From a virus: DNA of 61,326 nt. The DNA lies in IMG/VR virus record IMGVR_UViG_3300026038_000006, positions 1-61,326 of that record, one strand, 5' to 3'. Positions 41,921 through 49,182 of this stretch are shown piece after piece (the stretch's first letter is position 1; the number at the start of each line of letters is the position of its first letter). The position numbers and the translations under genes are program-made. The notes beneath the pieces were generated by a model. That model worked only from the letters and a program-made list of their open reading frames with translations. It had not been told where the DNA came from and made no database searches.

Positions 41921-43177
41921 TCACTTCCCCTTCTTTGATTTCGTGATTCTTTCCAGCTCGTCGTCCAAATCGTCTAGCTCGTCGCTTTCATCCTTTTTCT
42001 TTGACTTTTTGGACTTCTTAGGTGGTTCGTCATCGTCATCGTCGTCTTCGACAACGGCTTTTTTCTTTGACTTCTTCGGCGGTTCATCATCGTCTTCATC
42101 GTCTTCATCGTCTTCATCGTCTTCATCATCATTATCGTCATCATCGACAACGGCTTTTTTCTTTGACTTTTTCGGCGGTTCGTCTTCGTCTTCGTCGTCA
42201 TCTTCATCGTCGACAACGGCTTTTTTCTTTGACTTCTTAGGCGGCTCGTCTTCGTCTTCGTCATCGTCGTCATCTTCATCGACAACGACCTTTTTCTTTG
42301 ACTTCTTAGGCGGCTCGTCTTCATCATCGTCGTCATCGTCGATGATGCGCGATTTTTTCCCCTTCTTCAACGACTCTTCCAACTCAGCCTCGTCGTCATC
42401 GTCATCATCAGGGTCTTCCATTTTTACACCAGTCAGCATTGCTCTGATTTCGGCCGGTGATTTGATCATATTTGCCGCGATCTTGAACAAATCACAATCG
42501 CCGCCCTCGCTCATAGCGACTTTCAAAGCGCCACGACATTTCTTGTCCAATTTCAATGGACTCTTTATCGTTGGAACATCAACAGACACCTTGTACTTGG
42601 TGTCATTTTTCCCTTTCCCCTCTCGTCCAACAATGGCCAACGTGGCTTCTTGCACATCCGTAACATCGCCAGCCTGGTCGAAAATGTCGATGAATCCGGT
42701 GTGTATGGTCTTGTTAGCCATCGTCACGCCCGGCTTGAATGATTGCGCATTCCAATCATCATCACCTTTGCCACGCGACGCGATTTTGGTTGTTCCCCAC
42801 AACCACTTCGTCTGTGGGCGAGCTTCTGTGGCTTCCTCGGAATCCATCCCGCCGTTTTCAATCTCTTCACAAACAGGGCACGTCCCATCGAGCTTCGGCG
42901 CATTCTTTCGCGCCTTCAACATTCCCTTCAAATACGGGTGTTTCAAAATCTCGTTTCTGTTCTTGTCAAGGCAAACACACATCGCATTGTTCTTGCCAAC
43001 ATTGAAATGAACAGTGATAGGAACCCAAGGGAATCCAGCGGTGGGTGGCGTCTCATCATCAGGGCGACATTGCCCGTGGATGTATATTCGCGTCTCGCCC
43101 GATGGGTATGTGAGGAACTCGCCGCCAGTGGCCAGTTCTTCTTTGTGTTTCTTCATCTTCTTCATGTCGATAGCCAT
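41921..43177 (-). CDS. gp32-like single-stranded DNA-binding protein with charged repeat tail
   Basis: 418 aa. Residues 1-255 contain the Cys/His zinc site (MCVCLDKN, HPYLKG, CPVCEEI) characteristic of gp32-type SSBs. Residues 256-418 are five imperfect repeats of an acidic run followed by EPPKKSKKKAVV, alternating strong negative and positive charge. Usual SSBs have a short acidic tail; this one is unusually long. Located directly upstream of recA. Confidence 0.85.
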   Translation of the reverse strand: MAIDMKKMKKHKEELATGGEFLTYPSGETRIYIHGQCRPDDETPPTAGFPWVPITVHFNVGKNNAMCVCLDKNRNEILKHPYLKGMLKARKNAPKLDGTCPVCEEIENGGMDSEEATEARPQTKWLWGTTKIASRGKGDDDWNAQSFKPGVTMANKTIHTGFIDIFDQAGDVTDVQEATLAIVGREGKGKNDTKYKVSVDVPTIKSPLKLDKKCRGALKVAMSEGGDCDLFKIAANMIKSPAEIRAMLTGVKMEDPDDDDDDEAELEESLKKGKKSRIIDDDDDDEDEPPKKSKKKVVVDEDDDDDEDEDEPPKKSKKKAVVDDEDDDEDEDEPPKKSKKKAVVDDDDNDDEDDEDDEDDEDDDEPPKKSKKKAVVEDDDDDDEPPKKSKKSKKKDESDELDDLDDELERITKSKKGK

Positions 43178-44095: not shown

Positions 44096-47000
44096 CTATG
44101 GTGATGTGGTTGATGGCGCTGACCTCAGAACCCTGAGTTTTCCGCCGTTGTAGAAATATGACCAACTGCGTTTGTCTCTTTTGGAGTCCAATTCTATTTT
44201 CACCAACGCCCCGGGTTTCAAAACACGTCGCACTTCTTTTGTCCAACTGGATGCGAATGCTATCACGCTGATGAATCGCGAACCACCGTCCAGCAATCCC
44301 AAGAATGCCATCCGGTTTCCATTCTTGTCATATTTTGGCCGAACGTGCGTGACAACGCCAACAAACGAAGGTGATACGCGATCCCAAAATGCTTTGTTCC
44401 TGATTGCATTGGAACGCCTTTTCACCTCGCGCTCTTCGCCCTCTGGGGTCTTGTATTTGATCAACTTTGACGGATCTTTCCATTCATATTCTTTGGCTGG
44501 ATGGCGACCAGCGACTATGCTTTGCCACACTGTCAACTCTTGTCCTGCTTCGACTGCTAGCCTGTACTCTTCCAGATTGATCATGAAATGACAACGTAAA
44601 TTCTCAAACCTCGCGTTCACAAAAGCATGAAGAACAACAGGCGTTCCTATTCCAGAATCAACCACATCTCGATAATCATCAAAGATGTCAAAATCCACTT
44701 TGATCCTATTTTGTTTCCCGCCAAGATCTTCGACATTAACATTGGCGTAACGGCGGCCCCAGAACATCTGTTTCCTTTCCAACTCACTGGGAAGCTCACC
44801 TGTGTTGAAATCTCCAATTTGATTGTACTTCACCTCAACAACGACGCCAGCGATGAATACGCCTTGATTGTCATTGTCTTTGAAAAAGTCTTCATCAGAC
44901 ATTGCCGCGATGGGAACCTTCACACTACGTTCCATGAAATTCGCATACGCATCGAGCGGATGTTTCCCGAATGCGAGTGGACTAACCTTCGAGGCCACAA
45001 CCTGCCTCTCTTCGGTGGTGAACTGCGGAGCATCAGCCGAATCTCGCAACAATCTTTCTGTTTTCTCTGTCCACCCCTTCTTCCCCAACTCTGTCCAAAA
45101 ATCTTCGATGTTTTCTATCAGCCACTTAGGATTCGGCACCACGTCATCTAACGCCCCGGCCTTCGCCAATGCCACAATGACACCCTTGTGTACTTTTCGG
45201 CGGTCCACGCGTTGAATCAAGTCACCGAAGTCCTTGTATGGTTGGGCGACCATGATTGATTCAGACGCAGCATCACCTACGCCCTTGATGTCGACGAGCG
45301 AACCACGAATGGCATTATTTGCTCTGTCTATTGTGAAATGCTTACCGCTATTCACCACCGACGGCGGCAACAATTCTATGCCATGTTTTTTAGCATCTTT
45401 AGCGATCTGTTGGATTCGTATTCGGTCAGGTTCGTTCTTCAATAGCGCCCAATAGAATTCGATCGGGTGGCGTATTTTCAAGAACATTTCCCAATACGCG
45501 ACCCGATCGAATTCGGTGGCATGCGACTTGTTGAATCCATAACTATTATGGCTTATCAAGTAATTACACGAATCGCTGTTGAATAATCTGACGGCATAGT
45601 TGCTAGGTTCGAATTCGCACTCCAAGTCCCAAGTCTTCAATCGCCCATCTTTTCGATTACCAAGAACCTTGAAAATCGAATCACCAACACGCAATTCTGT
45701 ACCAGGCGTGCAATCCTTTGTCTCTATATATTCCCCTGTGCTATTCATCCACCAATGCGATCCGGTCGCCCAAATTTCGCCTTGTTCGAGTGTCATCCTG
45801 CGGACAGGCTTCACCCCTGTGCACTCTATTCTTTTCACTCTATTTAGCTCGGGGCGAATGTCGTCATCAAAAGACACTATCCAATCACCAACCTTTAGCG
45901 TTTCGATTTCTTTCCAAGTCGCCCAGCAATTTTTTCTTTCGTGTGTTCTTTGCTGTGGCAACTTTGACACAGCACTTCCAAGTTCTCTTCTCGGTTGTCC
46001 GCTTTGTTTCGATTCTTGTGGTGGATGTGAAATGACTTTTGATTCGGCCCTGATCCCTTGATCAACGAAGTGCCGCAACGACAACATCCCTTCTCTTCCT
46101 TCAACAACCTGTTCCTTGCTAGTTTGAAGTTTTTGATGTGTCCGCCCTTCCAAGACGGATTTAATGCCCCTGTTATCTTCTTGGATTGCAACTTGTTCGA
46201 CGCAATGACCCTCGCCCCAGGCGCTGACTTCCACCCGCGCCCAAGCACCCCTATCTTGTTGTGCTCTGAACTCACAGGATTCCCGATCACCGTTCTTTCC
46301 TTCCTGTATTCCCTCTGGTAGTGTATTGAGCACAATCCCCTTGCCAACACTTTCCTCTCGCAATGCGCACAAGTCTTCATCACTTCCCTCGACCACTAAA
46401 ACCAACGATTCACCAGGTATACATCCAAAGAACGTGATCGCATCCATTATCTTTCCTGCGATCTCTTTGGTCATCCCTCGGTCACCCCAATTTTCCATCG
46501 CACCCTTAATGAAATTCTCGCGTTCTTTTCCAATCGTCTCATCGCCAAATTTTTTGGCTATTTTCTTGCGCAAGCTGTCCGCCGTTGCTGGGGCAAACCC
46601 GGCTATGTCGGTGAAAATACGCATCACGTGCTCTTGATACACGATGATTCCCAATGTGTCTTTCGTGATTTCACTCACCGCTGGGTGAAACGATGCCTTT
46701 TCAACCAATTTCGGGTTGCGCTTTCGTGCCACATATTGCGTGGCTAGGCCGCTTCGCGCGGTGCCCGGTCGATTCAACGCTGTCATGGCAGCGATGTCCT
46801 CGAAGTGTTTGAACTCAACGCCTGTGCAAATCTTGTCGGCACCCGGGGAATCATACTGAAACACGCCACAATAATCGTGATCTGTGAATCCTTGAAGAAC
46901 GTCTTTCAAATTCAAATCAATGCGTTCGAGGTCGATCTTTTCACCAGTGTGTTGTTCAACTGCTTCTAGACATTCACGAATGACACTCAGCGTTCGCAGC

Positions 47001-48847
47001 CCAAGAACGTCCAATTTCAGCAACCCACACGCTGCCACCCCGTACATATCGATGGCGCTCACCACAACGTCACGGCCATCATGCTTTCTCGTCTCCAATG
47101 GGACAAGATTCATCAACGGTTCAGGAGAAGTCACGACGCCTGCTGCGTGTATTCCAAGCGTCTTGGCCATTCCTTCGAGCTTCTTCGCATATCTCAGAAC
47201 ATCCGGGTATTTGGCGTTGAATTCGCGACACACCTTGAATTCTTTGAAAGAGTCCTCAACCGTCTGGCTGGCCCGCTCGTCGCCGCTGCTTCTTTCGATG
47301 ATGGAATTGGTGACTTGGTTTACTGCTGCATACGGCACTTCAAGAACACGCGATATGTCTCTGATTACAGCCTTCCCCGAAAGCTTGCCTACGGTGGCAA
47401 TCTGACACACCTTATCATTGCCGTATTTGTTTCGCAGATACTCGATGATCTCTTGTCGGCGCCGATCCTCAAAGTCCATATCAATATCGGGCTGGTCGAC
47501 ACGCGTTGGGCTTATGAATCGTTCGAACAACAGATTGTGCTCTATCGGATCAACCGATGTGATGCCGGTCAGGTATGCAACGAGCGAACCCGCCGCTGAG
47601 CCTCGTCCAGGCCCACACATGATTTCCTGCTGGCGCACCCAATTGTATAAATCGTGAACAAGAAGGAAATATGAAACAAACTTTTGGCTTTTGATTGCTG
47701 TCAGTTCTCTTTTCAACCTTGCCACGTATCGTTTCAGCCATTCTGCTTCGTCGCCGCCCTCGCGCTTTGACAACAGAGTGGCGCGGGCCGGTATGTCACG
47801 CCATGCCCAACCGCGCAAACACAAATCCTTCAAGTATGCGAACTCATTGCCGTCATACTTCTCAGGAACCGGTATTGGTGGCATGAGACACTTGTCTTTA
47901 TCGATGGTAACCAGGCCATCAGATATTGTGTCCATGAACACCAACGTGTTGTCCAAAGATTCTTTGACTTGCTCTCTGGTCAAGTAAGCGTGTGTTGATC
48001 TGAACTTCGCAAACATTTCCTTTCGGGTTTTGAAATGAAAATCATTCCCGGTGAAACGAAAACGCTCGGGGTTGCTCATCACATCATTGGTTCCGATACA
48101 GAGCATCACTTCATGCGTTTCCCAATCTTCCGGCCTGACATAATGTGCGTCTTGCGTTGCAAGCAGGCGCGCCTTCTTCCCCCACCTATCCTTCAATTCC
48201 AGTGCCAACTGGTTGGAGATCACCTGCTCTTCGATTGCGTGCGGTTGTATCTCAATCCACAAATCTTCCCCAAATTGTTCACGCATCTCATCGGCAATTT
48301 CTAATGCAAGCTTCTTTTTCCCCAACACGGCCCTGTCATAGATGACGCTGGAACAACATCCCGTCGCCACCACCAACCCCTCTTTGTACTTGTACAGTTC
48401 GTTCAAGTCAATGCGCGGCTTGTAGTAGAACCCCTCGGTGTATGCAAGCGACGCCAAGCGCATCATATTCCGCATTCCCTCTGCGTTCTTCGCCCAGCAC
48501 GTCAAATGCCATCTGTCTCGGATGCCGTGTTGCTCTTCATACTTCTTGATGGCATCTTTGTGCTCGCTTCGAGGTTTGCCTTTCGTGATGTCCGCGCGCT
48601 CGTCTTCGGTTAGGCCCTTTCGACGCATGTCATTGGCCACATAGAATTCAATCCCATAAATTGGCTTGATGTTGTGTTCTTTGCATTGATCATATTGCGT
48701 CTGGTACCCGCGCATTGTCCCGTGTTCGGTGAAAGCGATTGAAGGCGCCTTGCGTTCGACTACGGCCTTGATGTATTCGGATATTTTCCCAGCACCGTCT
48801 AGTTGGCTAGCATCCGAATGGTTGTGCAACCCTACAAAGTCTTCCAT
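44096..48847 (-). CDS. dnaE: DNA polymerase III alpha subunit (bacterial DnaE type), intein-containing
   Basis: 1583 aa precursor from the ATG at 48847 (overlaps the upstream TGA); numbering here counts from the alternative ATG at 48856. PHP domain: LHNHSDASQLDG (10-21), FTEHGTMRG, DAHY (236). Palm: GPGRGSAAGSL (415-425) and PDIDMDF (456-462) with catalytic Asp. Residues 812-1104 are an intein, leaving a mature enzyme of about 1290 residues. The splice junction is at TFFG / SYGFNKSHA in the fingers. This is the replicative polymerase; no separate proofreading subunit is visible in the window. Confidence 0.95.
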   Translation of the reverse strand: MEDFVGLHNHSDASQLDGAGKISEYIKAVVERKAPSIAFTEHGTMRGYQTQYDQCKEHNIKPIYGIEFYVANDMRRKGLTEDERADITKGKPRSEHKDAIKKYEEQHGIRDRWHLTCWAKNAEGMRNMMRLASLAYTEGFYYKPRIDLNELYKYKEGLVVATGCCSSVIYDRAVLGKKKLALEIADEMREQFGEDLWIEIQPHAIEEQVISNQLALELKDRWGKKARLLATQDAHYVRPEDWETHEVMLCIGTNDVMSNPERFRFTGNDFHFKTRKEMFAKFRSTHAYLTREQVKESLDNTLVFMDTISDGLVTIDKDKCLMPPIPVPEKYDGNEFAYLKDLCLRGWAWRDIPARATLLSKREGGDEAEWLKRYVARLKRELTAIKSQKFVSYFLLVHDLYNWVRQQEIMCGPGRGSAAGSLVAYLTGITSVDPIEHNLLFERFISPTRVDQPDIDMDFEDRRRQEIIEYLRNKYGNDKVCQIATVGKLSGKAVIRDISRVLEVPYAAVNQVTNSIIERSSGDERASQTVEDSFKEFKVCREFNAKYPDVLRYAKKLEGMAKTLGIHAAGVVTSPEPLMNLVPLETRKHDGRDVVVSAIDMYGVAACGLLKLDVLGLRTLSVIRECLEAVEQHTGEKIDLERIDLNLKDVLQGFTDHDYCGVFQYDSPGADKICTGVEFKHFEDIAAMTALNRPGTARSGLATQYVARKRNPKLVEKASFHPAVSEITKDTLGIIVYQEHVMRIFTDIAGFAPATADSLRKKIAKKFGDETIGKERENFIKGAMENWGDRGMTKEIAGKIMDAITFFGCIPGESLVLVVEGSDEDLCALREESVGKGIVLNTLPEGIQEGKNGDRESCEFRAQQDRGAWARVEVSAWGEGHCVEQVAIQEDNRGIKSVLEGRTHQKLQTSKEQVVEGREGMLSLRHFVDQGIRAESKVISHPPQESKQSGQPRRELGSAVSKLPQQRTHERKNCWATWKEIETLKVGDWIVSFDDDIRPELNRVKRIECTGVKPVRRMTLEQGEIWATGSHWWMNSTGEYIETKDCTPGTELRVGDSIFKVLGNRKDGRLKTWDLECEFEPSNYAVRLFNSDSCNYLISHNSYGFNKSHATEFDRVAYWEMFLKIRHPIEFYWALLKNEPDRIRIQQIAKDAKKHGIELLPPSVVNSGKHFTIDRANNAIRGSLVDIKGVGDAASESIMVAQPYKDFGDLIQRVDRRKVHKGVIVALAKAGALDDVVPNPKWLIENIEDFWTELGKKGWTEKTERLLRDSADAPQFTTEERQVVASKVSPLAFGKHPLDAYANFMERSVKVPIAAMSDEDFFKDNDNQGVFIAGVVVEVKYNQIGDFNTGELPSELERKQMFWGRRYANVNVEDLGGKQNRIKVDFDIFDDYRDVVDSGIGTPVVLHAFVNARFENLRCHFMINLEEYRLAVEAGQELTVWQSIVAGRHPAKEYEWKDPSKLIKYKTPEGEEREVKRRSNAIRNKAFWDRVSPSFVGVVTHVRPKYDKNGNRMAFLGLLDGGSRFISVIAFASSWTKEVRRVLKPGALVKIELDSKRDKRSWSYFYNGGKLRVLRSAPSTTSP
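45545..46423 (-). other. Intein in DnaE, split internally by an out-of-frame HNH gene
   Basis: 293 codons. First residue Cys in GCIPGESLVLVVEG (block A), then after the inserted HNH region TWKEIETLKVGDWIVSFDDD, then block B ATGSHWWMNSTGEYIETKD, and block F/G TWDLECEF with NYLISHN before Ser +1. Removing the inserted part leaves about 135-140 residues, the size of a mini-intein. All splicing residues (Cys1, block B His, HN at the end, Ser+1) are present. The dnaE frame stays open through the HNH region. Confidence 0.88.
45895..46380 (-). CDS. HNH homing-endonuclease-like protein, nested in another frame of the DnaE intein
   Basis: 161 aa; ATG at 46380 with GAGGGAAG upstream (GTG at 46383 also possible). 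N-terminal ribbon KTCAHCERKVLARGLCSIHY (two Cys pairs) and C-terminal HNH core: CCRCGT, FHIHHKNRNKADNREENL, VLCQSCHSKEHT. The frame is offset from dnaE on the same strand. The last 8 codons overlap genuine intein sequence (WKEIETL). It probably serves as the mobility endonuclease of the intein. Confidence 0.88.
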   Translation of the reverse strand: MKTCAHCERKVLARGLCSIHYQREYRKERTVIGNPVSSEHNKIGVLGRGWKSAPGARVIASNKLQSKKITGALNPSWKGGHIKNFKLARNRLLKEEKGCCRCGTSLIKGSGPNQKSFHIHHKNRNKADNREENLEVLCQSCHSKEHTKEKIAGRLGKKSKR

Positions 48848-49182
48848 CACGCCCATCCCATACTGGTGATCAACTCCACCAATTCACCAGGGAAGTCCTG
48901 TTTCAACATCCATGACAGGTAGTCCTTCCCTTCTCTATTGGTTGAAAGTTTACTTAGGCAGAACCCATTGTACTTTCCAAAATACAAAGTGGCATCGATG
49001 ACGTGACCGGAGTCATCACGGTGCAGCCGATATCTCCCTTGGTTGCGCATATCGGCAGGCGTTTTCATTGCCTTCGGCGGATGTTTCGCTTCTGGCTCAC
49101 GCTCACGCTCACGCAAAGCGGGCAATCCTTCGATCTCTTGGCCACTCAACCAAACTCTGATTTCATCAATCGTCGGCATCAT
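48847..49182 (-). CDS. DUF3820-like small protein
   Basis: 111 aa; ATGs at 49182 and 49179 overlap the kinase end. YFGKYNGFCLSKLSTNREGK followed by DYLSWMLKQ matches the (F)GK(Y)KG...YL.W pattern of DUF3820-type proteins, which often accompany phage polymerases or exonucleases. Stop overlaps the dnaE start (TGATG). Biochemical function unknown. Confidence 0.75.
   Translation of the reverse strand: MMPTIDEIRVWLSGQEIEGLPALREREREPEAKHPPKAMKTPADMRNQGRYRLHRDDSGHVIDATLYFGKYNGFCLSKLSTNREGKDYLSWMLKQDFPGELVELITSMGWA

Follow-up and report, generated by a model that had tools for sequence, protein, structure and literature searches.

The viral DNA analysed here is a stretch of 61,326 nucleotides (IMG/VR record IMGVR_UViG_3300026038_000006, positions 1 to 61,326; hereafter the window). 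It encodes a DnaE protein (DNA polymerase III alpha) interrupted by an intein, and within this intein lies a gene for an HNH endonuclease in another reading frame. We consider it quite probable that the intein splices in cis and that its homing endonuclease is not an in-frame domain but the product of an overprinted gene with a translation start of its own. The dnaE open reading frame (ORF; 44096–48856, minus strand, as are the intein and HNH features of the window) codes for 1586 residues and is unbroken through the intein; its product matches the Pfam families DNA_pol3_alpha, DNA_pol3_finger, PHP and HHH_6. The initial annotation, made from the letters alone, had proposed a 293-codon intein with all normal splicing blocks, and this is borne out at 45545–46423, from Cys1 to a terminal His-Asn followed by Ser at +1. 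Block A (CIPGESLVLVVEG, 46385–46423) supplies the cysteine at position 1, is modelled with high confidence and makes up the 13 residues ahead of the overlap with the HNH gene. The first intein block past the overlap is the KVGDW stretch (45881–45895), followed by block B with TGSH as TxxH (45755–45766) and by blocks F and G (TWDLECEF...ISHN, 45545–45634). These are the residues of a class 1 intein and, as for such inteins, homologues with an uninterrupted site exist (62 of 71 distinct dnaE sites are empty). Both intein parts lie in the single 1586-residue ORF and not in separate ones, as they would in a split intein or fractured gene.

Between block A and KVGDW, the +1 frame of dnaE holds an ORF of 161 codons (45898–46380; 45895–46380 with the stop codon). 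It begins with ATG, is kept in relatives, and its product matches Pfam HNH (PF01844) at 26.9 bits for a cut-off of 21.4. Its TAA shares bases with the Leu-Lys codons of ETLK that precede VGDW (ETLKVGDW), and the C-terminal junction of the intein lies 118 residues beyond this stop. Hence, the endonuclease is neither in frame with the intein nor between blocks B and F, in agreement with the initial reading of a separate gene at an unusual place. That reading had also given the HNH protein a ribosome site of its own. The clean ORF stands, and a Shine-Dalgarno-like GAGG is present 6 bases ahead of the ATG (46387–46390), but its strength is unremarkable. RNA folding around the start showed nothing notable (z 1.58). 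An HNH profile gave just two weak matches in the PDB (E about 0.06) and 12 weak, mostly partial matches in bacterial and archaeal genomes. A single-sequence structure prediction of the HNH protein reached a mean predicted local distance difference test score (pLDDT) of 31 and was set aside.

The splicing domain can be followed around the overlap. A profile of the window intein and its relatives matches solved inteins, with DnaX at 9.5e-11 and DnaE at 2.5e-10 as well as gp41-1 and VidaL. In an AlphaFold model of the intein (14 rows), 106 of 298 residues have a pLDDT of at least 90, while residues 39–163, most of the overlap, fall below 50. Comparison of this model with the PDB gave 89 of 687 aligned chains at Z of at least 5, the best alignment having Z 19.4 over 133 residues with a root-mean-square deviation of 1.4; 50 PDB entries listed among the Z ≥5 matches are inteins, intein-like or hedgehog Hint domains. 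A Hint fold is confidently predicted around a disordered stretch that corresponds to the overlap, and in the model block A packs with the remaining Hint domain across the insertion.

The absence of stop codons from the dnaE frame across the HNH gene is hard to obtain by chance. Synonymous shuffles of the HNH gene with its own codons gave a mean of 7.38 dnaE-frame stops and none in 2 of 30,000 cases; the figure of 5 in 10,000 in the initial annotation was of the right order and, if anything, mild. With HNH codons drawn according to dnaE extein usage, the mean was 10.0 and none of 20,000 draws was free of stops. The third frame across the HNH gene has 9 stops and the dnaE frame 0. For a stop to arise in the dnaE frame, an HNH codon must end in T and be followed by AA, AG or GA. 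Among the window HNH codons ending in T or C, T is found in 0/15 before these dinucleotides and in 23/41 elsewhere (Fisher p 1e-4). The same holds for the six dnaE loci together (0/96 at stop-risk positions versus 167/292 elsewhere, 3e-29) and for twelve inteins of the +1 frame type (0/178 versus 286/567, 2e-45). Controls showed little or no such effect, with 790/1590 versus 1543/2993 at loci nested in the other frame (p 0.24) and a slight deficit, 904/1649 versus 1703/2944, at loci without the nested type (p 0.05). Selection holds the dnaE frame stop-free, an avoidance read from codon usage, and it costs the endonuclease nothing since NNT and NNC are always synonymous.

The two frames are conserved differently. 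Over five dnaE loci (10 pairs), the HNH frame has a mean pairwise identity of 47% and the host frame one of 25%, and nucleotide identity at HNH codon positions 1, 2 and 3 of the dnaE loci is 57, 62 and 39%. For 37 nested terminase-type loci, identity is 39.5% in the HNH frame and 21.1% in the host frame; non-nested controls give 43.3% in the HNH frame and 23.3 or 22.6% in the same mock frames. Because the host-frame identities match those of the mock frames, the host-frame residues are no better conserved than a by-product. Of the two overlapping frames, the HNH frame is under amino-acid conservation and the host frame is kept open. A sequencing error that had put a truly in-frame HNH out of frame, the condition under which the initial annotation would have fallen, was also considered and is unlikely: the virus record L001, perhaps not an independent sample, has the same bases as the window throughout the intein, and relatives show the arrangement again. 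Over 14,758 compared bases, L001 differs from the window by 9 mismatches, all in one 12-base cluster outside the intein.

Reading the same dnaE site in other viruses gave 71 distinct sites, of which 62 are empty, 8 carry an intein and 1 is unclear; a further dnaE scan added empty sites and no additional intein locus. Six of the eight inteins have an out-of-frame HNH, each in +1 (the window, L002, L005, L008, L018 and L023), and two an in-frame HNH (L027, L029). The window and the five other out-of-frame loci have a complete set of catalytic intein blocks, and the HNHs of four relatives are 40–50% identical to that of the window. No HNH-free intein was seen among the eight distinct inteins at this site. 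The initial annotation had seen a newly acquired or overprinted gene. The overprinting holds, but the recent acquisition is not supported by these counts. The initial annotation had named relatives lacking both HNH and intein at this site as a ground for refutation, and on that ground a mini-intein newly invaded by an HNH gene is disfavoured, which leaves the nested arrangement itself unaffected. Rather, the intein and its out-of-frame HNH seem to have belonged together for a long time. The distribution of the intein is patchy. On a tree of dnaE exteins, first built without the window row and repeated with it, 7 changes account for the 8 intein rows among the 37 labelled ones, against 7.5 with shuffled labels; L018 and L020, 80% identical, differ in the presence of the intein. 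Such patchiness would fit mobility. L006 (4974–9644), counted among the empty sites, does carry a dnaE intein with an in-frame HNH, but a few residues downstream in the same motif, where it separates FNK from SHA.

Nested HNH genes recur well beyond dnaE. Two HNH profiles, built from nested HNHs and blind to the host frame, were run over viral contigs, the second scan comprising 80 of 409 matches; all counts of HNH loci given from here on are among the matches listed. After removal of 9 identical rows and a second contig copy (L137), 137 rows left 127 distinct loci, 13 of them added by hand (L002 and the phage records L125–L136, picked from match lists, partly by annotation). With these additions and with profiles seeded by nested HNHs, the frequencies are not population estimates. 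A locus was called nested when a host ORF of at least 250 residues runs stop-free across the HNH, so that zero host-frame stops follow by definition; L112, which reaches the end of its contig, was added to this set by hand. In total, 62 of the 127 loci are nested, with 46 hosts in the HNH +1 frame and 16 in +2. When the thirteen hand-added loci and the profile seeds are left out, 45 of 103 are nested, and a stop-free alternative frame is found in 49 of the 103 versus 8.8 expected. In the second scan, 39 of 72 new distinct loci have such a frame (3.7 expected), and these are the nested ones; the remainder are 17 split by pattern, 15 free and 1 with the C-half only. Since no HNH ORF of that scan exceeds 272 residues, none is in frame with a terminase-sized ORF. 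Across the 62 nested loci, host-frame stops number 0 versus 175.9 in shuffles, and those of the other frame 898 versus 917; the 65 other loci have 1247 stops versus 1322 in shuffles.

Setting aside three methylase-like loci (L086, L087, L105) and the doubtful L117 (69% GC) leaves 58 nested hosts, whose intein blocks were judged by eye. Pfam Intein_splicing is matched by 50 of them; the window intein is outside this set because, taken alone, it has no Pfam match. The nested hosts include 6 DnaE and 2 portal proteins, and terminase families account for many others. Ten nested HNHs that were scanned match Pfam HNH or HNH_3, several with zinc-finger-like parts. Of the twelve named phages taken up, five have a nested HNH (Tetrasphaera phage TJE1, Acinetobacter phage Highwayman, Gordonia phage Clown, Synechococcus phage S-EIV1 and Rhodobacteraceae phage LS06-2018-MD07), and in all five records the terminase alone is annotated over the HNH match. 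In Gordonia phage Clown (L125, 1787–2929), the HNH frame is open beyond the C-terminal junction of the intein, and the end of the HNH may overlap C-extein codons.

Most nested HNHs occupy the usual place of an intein endonuclease. In 56 of the 58, the gene lies between blocks B and F and ends near the C-terminal junction, often extending into the codons of block F (the junction of L126 was missed by the pattern and placed by eye). In the window and L002, 118–119 residues separate the HNH end from the junction, and the second block comes after the HNH. Because the HNH of L002 is of another kind, with two HNH_3 stretches, the place after block A has been used at least twice or the gene has been exchanged there; this place may be newer than the unit of intein and HNH. 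All endonuclease domains in inteins are stated to be at one conserved insertion site (PMC6801210), to which the HNH of the window would be an exception. An interruption at the same place is known from split inteins: in engineered S1 split inteins the break falls between strands beta2 and beta3 and leaves an N-part of 10–12 residues (PMC3620165), and AceL-TerL is a natural atypical split intein with a 25-residue N-fragment (PMC11766414). The overlap in the window begins after 13 residues; unlike in S1 and AceL-TerL, however, there is no break here: the ORF runs on, and a gene occupies the place.

Split arrangements were also found among the HNH loci themselves. In 19 loci first scored as non-nested, some of them near-copies, regular expressions placed the end of an intein N-half near the HNH start and a C-half past the HNH end; two more, L132 and L170, were assigned to this class manually, the latter from its C-half only. 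In L132 (Vibrio phage 1.238.A), a terminase ORF ends in an intein-like N-half, followed by an unannotated HNH ORF; the C-half is found in a further ORF of its own ('hedgehog/hint domain'), and the whole looks like a fractured terminase gene. The HNHs of about 20 split-arranged relatives belong to the same broad family as the nested terminase HNHs. A tree of 87 HNHs from the family of the second profile (48 nested, 19 split, 20 free), to which the window's own HNH family, that of the first profile, does not belong, needs 15 changes for the three states versus 34.1 with shuffled labels. Grouping the nested HNHs as one clade is rejected (approximately unbiased test, p 0.0004). For nested and split alone, 3 changes are needed, of which well-supported branches force 1. 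On this tree the HNHs have changed state, and its branches do not fix a direction from nested to split. Of the 20 free loci, 16 were inspected on both sides for intein halves and showed none, and several free HNHs sit directly behind the end of a terminase gene.

Other explanations of the window have to be weighed against a splicing intein with an overprinted gene. The HNH could be overprinted and mobile in an intein that no longer splices, so that DnaE carries the insert or is dead. In the published case of a methylase insertion, an out-of-frame HNH is described with no splicing domain (PMC11855218), and the window C-extein is altered beside the intein. We nevertheless regard this as improbable: the catalytic blocks are complete in the window and in five other dnaE loci, a Hint fold is confidently predicted, and DnaE is the replicative polymerase, here interrupted at a conserved stretch. 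Alternatively, ribosomal frameshifting in dnaE could fuse the HNH to the short N-part of the intein, a notion suggested by an HNH that begins right past block A in a frame one base apart. With an ATG preceded by GAGG and a domain complete without the N-part, such an origin is very improbable; moreover, the nested HNHs of other genes start after block B, and the start ranks are similar to those of other HNH loci.

More doubtful still is a reading without selection and with a functionless HNH, in which codon composition and recent insertion would by themselves have left the dnaE frame open. Zero host-frame stops are no rarity at some loci taken singly (median chance 0.07 for +1 hosts), but the near-absence of stop-free shuffles for the window, the avoidance of T solely where a stop would arise and the excess of open frames in the second scan all stand against it. 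Phage group I introns commonly hold HNH genes, and the HNH gene could thus be part of a self-splicing intron inside the intein. This is hardly credible, given the little space outside the HNH ORF and the open dnaE frame. An Rfam scan of the window found no family at the gathering threshold, and within 45300–46700 no intron family had an E of 1 or less. A relaxed Rfam search gave three weak microRNA-family matches, confined to a nearby inverted repeat; no group I or II intron core was detected by these scans.

Several points weigh against an overprinted gene in a splicing intein. Splicing, expression and cutting are all inferred. The window intein alone matches no Pfam family and one NCBIfam model weakly, and its identity as an intein draws on the blocks, a profile made with relatives, and a predicted model; it also had no match in a phage collection. 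The start signal of the window HNH is ordinary, 35.5% of random best-of-5 starts of the locus scoring equally, and the mean start signal is weaker in nested HNHs than in others (−5.67 versus −7.03 kcal/mol). Start signals in the best 5% occur in 15 of 62 nested and about 16 of 63 other HNHs; overall, start-signal strength neither proves nor disproves separate translation of the HNH. The patchy distribution of the intein could equally be given by many losses. Finally, the window C-extein differs from its near-copy L001 at the conserved stretch adjoining the intein, so that the dnaE copy of this record may be odd. The 9 mismatches in 12 bases, which turn the conserved TAYGIIAYW into TEFDRVAYW, lie at the inverted repeat just past the intein (22-nt arms at 45455–45476 and 45493–45514, 95% complementary, 16 nt between). 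The cluster looks as if copied from the neighbouring strand, by template switch, amplification or an assembly artefact. Elsewhere in the window, a gene at 41921–43177 (minus strand) codes for a 418-residue protein, perhaps single-strand-binding, whose C-terminal part has several acidic repeats with PPKKSKK.

If the intein does splice and the HNH gene is translated separately, the system would work as follows. Ribosomes in the dnaE frame would cross the HNH gene and add about 160 residues with no fold of their own, which the intein may accommodate as a loop behind its first strands. The Hint domain would then excise itself together with this loop and leave DnaE, as its conserved residues and predicted fold suggest. 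Other ribosomes would begin at the HNH ATG and make the HNH protein, to which the ORF, its conservation and its start signal point. The target of this protein would be the conserved FFG/SYGFNKSHA stretch of intein-free dnaE; after the cut, repair would carry over the intein along with its HNH gene, consistent with the patchy distribution and the empty relatives. Meanwhile, selection would keep the dnaE frame free of stops, silently, through the third positions of HNH codons.

As in bifunctional inteins, the window intein combines a Hint domain with an endonuclease and interrupts an important gene at a conserved position; in contrast to such inteins, its endonuclease is encoded out of frame and after block A and would be made as a protein of its own. 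In fractured genes, reportedly described by Dassa et al. in 2009, the endonuclease gene is said to lie between split intein halves. The window likewise has a separate endonuclease gene between two intein parts, but its host frame is unbroken and the intein is therefore cis. The ShiLan domain is an out-of-frame HNH in phage DNA methylases (Arsenault, Gosselin, Gogarten 2025, PMC11855218); its authors find neither intein nor intron around it, take the insert to remain part of the methylase and report no ribosome binding site. PMC12613952 likewise describes an out-of-frame HNH in an open methylase host frame, so that out-of-frame HNHs in methylases without an intein are already known. Like ShiLan, the window has an out-of-frame HNH in a stop-free host frame, a patchy distribution and a host-frame product predicted to be poorly ordered; unlike ShiLan, its HNH is inside a complete intein, with full blocks and a predicted Hint domain. 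Methylase-like ORFs without an intein (DNA cytosine methyltransferases by eye) that hold out-of-frame HNH-like ORFs, resembling the ShiLan kind, were also seen in our set (L086 3824–4291, L087 3686–4294, L105 3776–4114, L110 3947–4243 and L094 2879–4393). A search of the literature gave no recognised account of an out-of-frame endonuclease gene in a continuous intein; a 2025 preprint by Gosselin et al. on actinobacteriophage inteins of 'non-canonical architecture' (10.1101/2025.01.02.630785) may cover this.

Tentatively, out-of-frame endonuclease genes may be a widespread third way of building mobile inteins and a stage towards natural split inteins, a proposal we hold as possible and somewhat short of probable. 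A self-translated HNH gene overprinted in a continuous intein would supply, with its start and stop, new translation ends. The host frame could then break, leaving a split intein with the HNH between its halves. The usual place between blocks B and F would lead to typical split inteins, and the place after block A to atypical ones such as AceL-TerL. With one HNH family in nested, split and free states, the origin of natural split inteins becomes testable. If the reading of the window is true, the endonuclease of an intein need not be its domain, and one DNA stretch serves splicing and mobility in two frames. The codon rule would be the reason why overprinting is cheap, each host-frame stop being silently removable with the HNH at +1. 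Annotation would then miss a second protein, and the reading is testable on isolates with named hosts, for example Gordonia terrae 3612.
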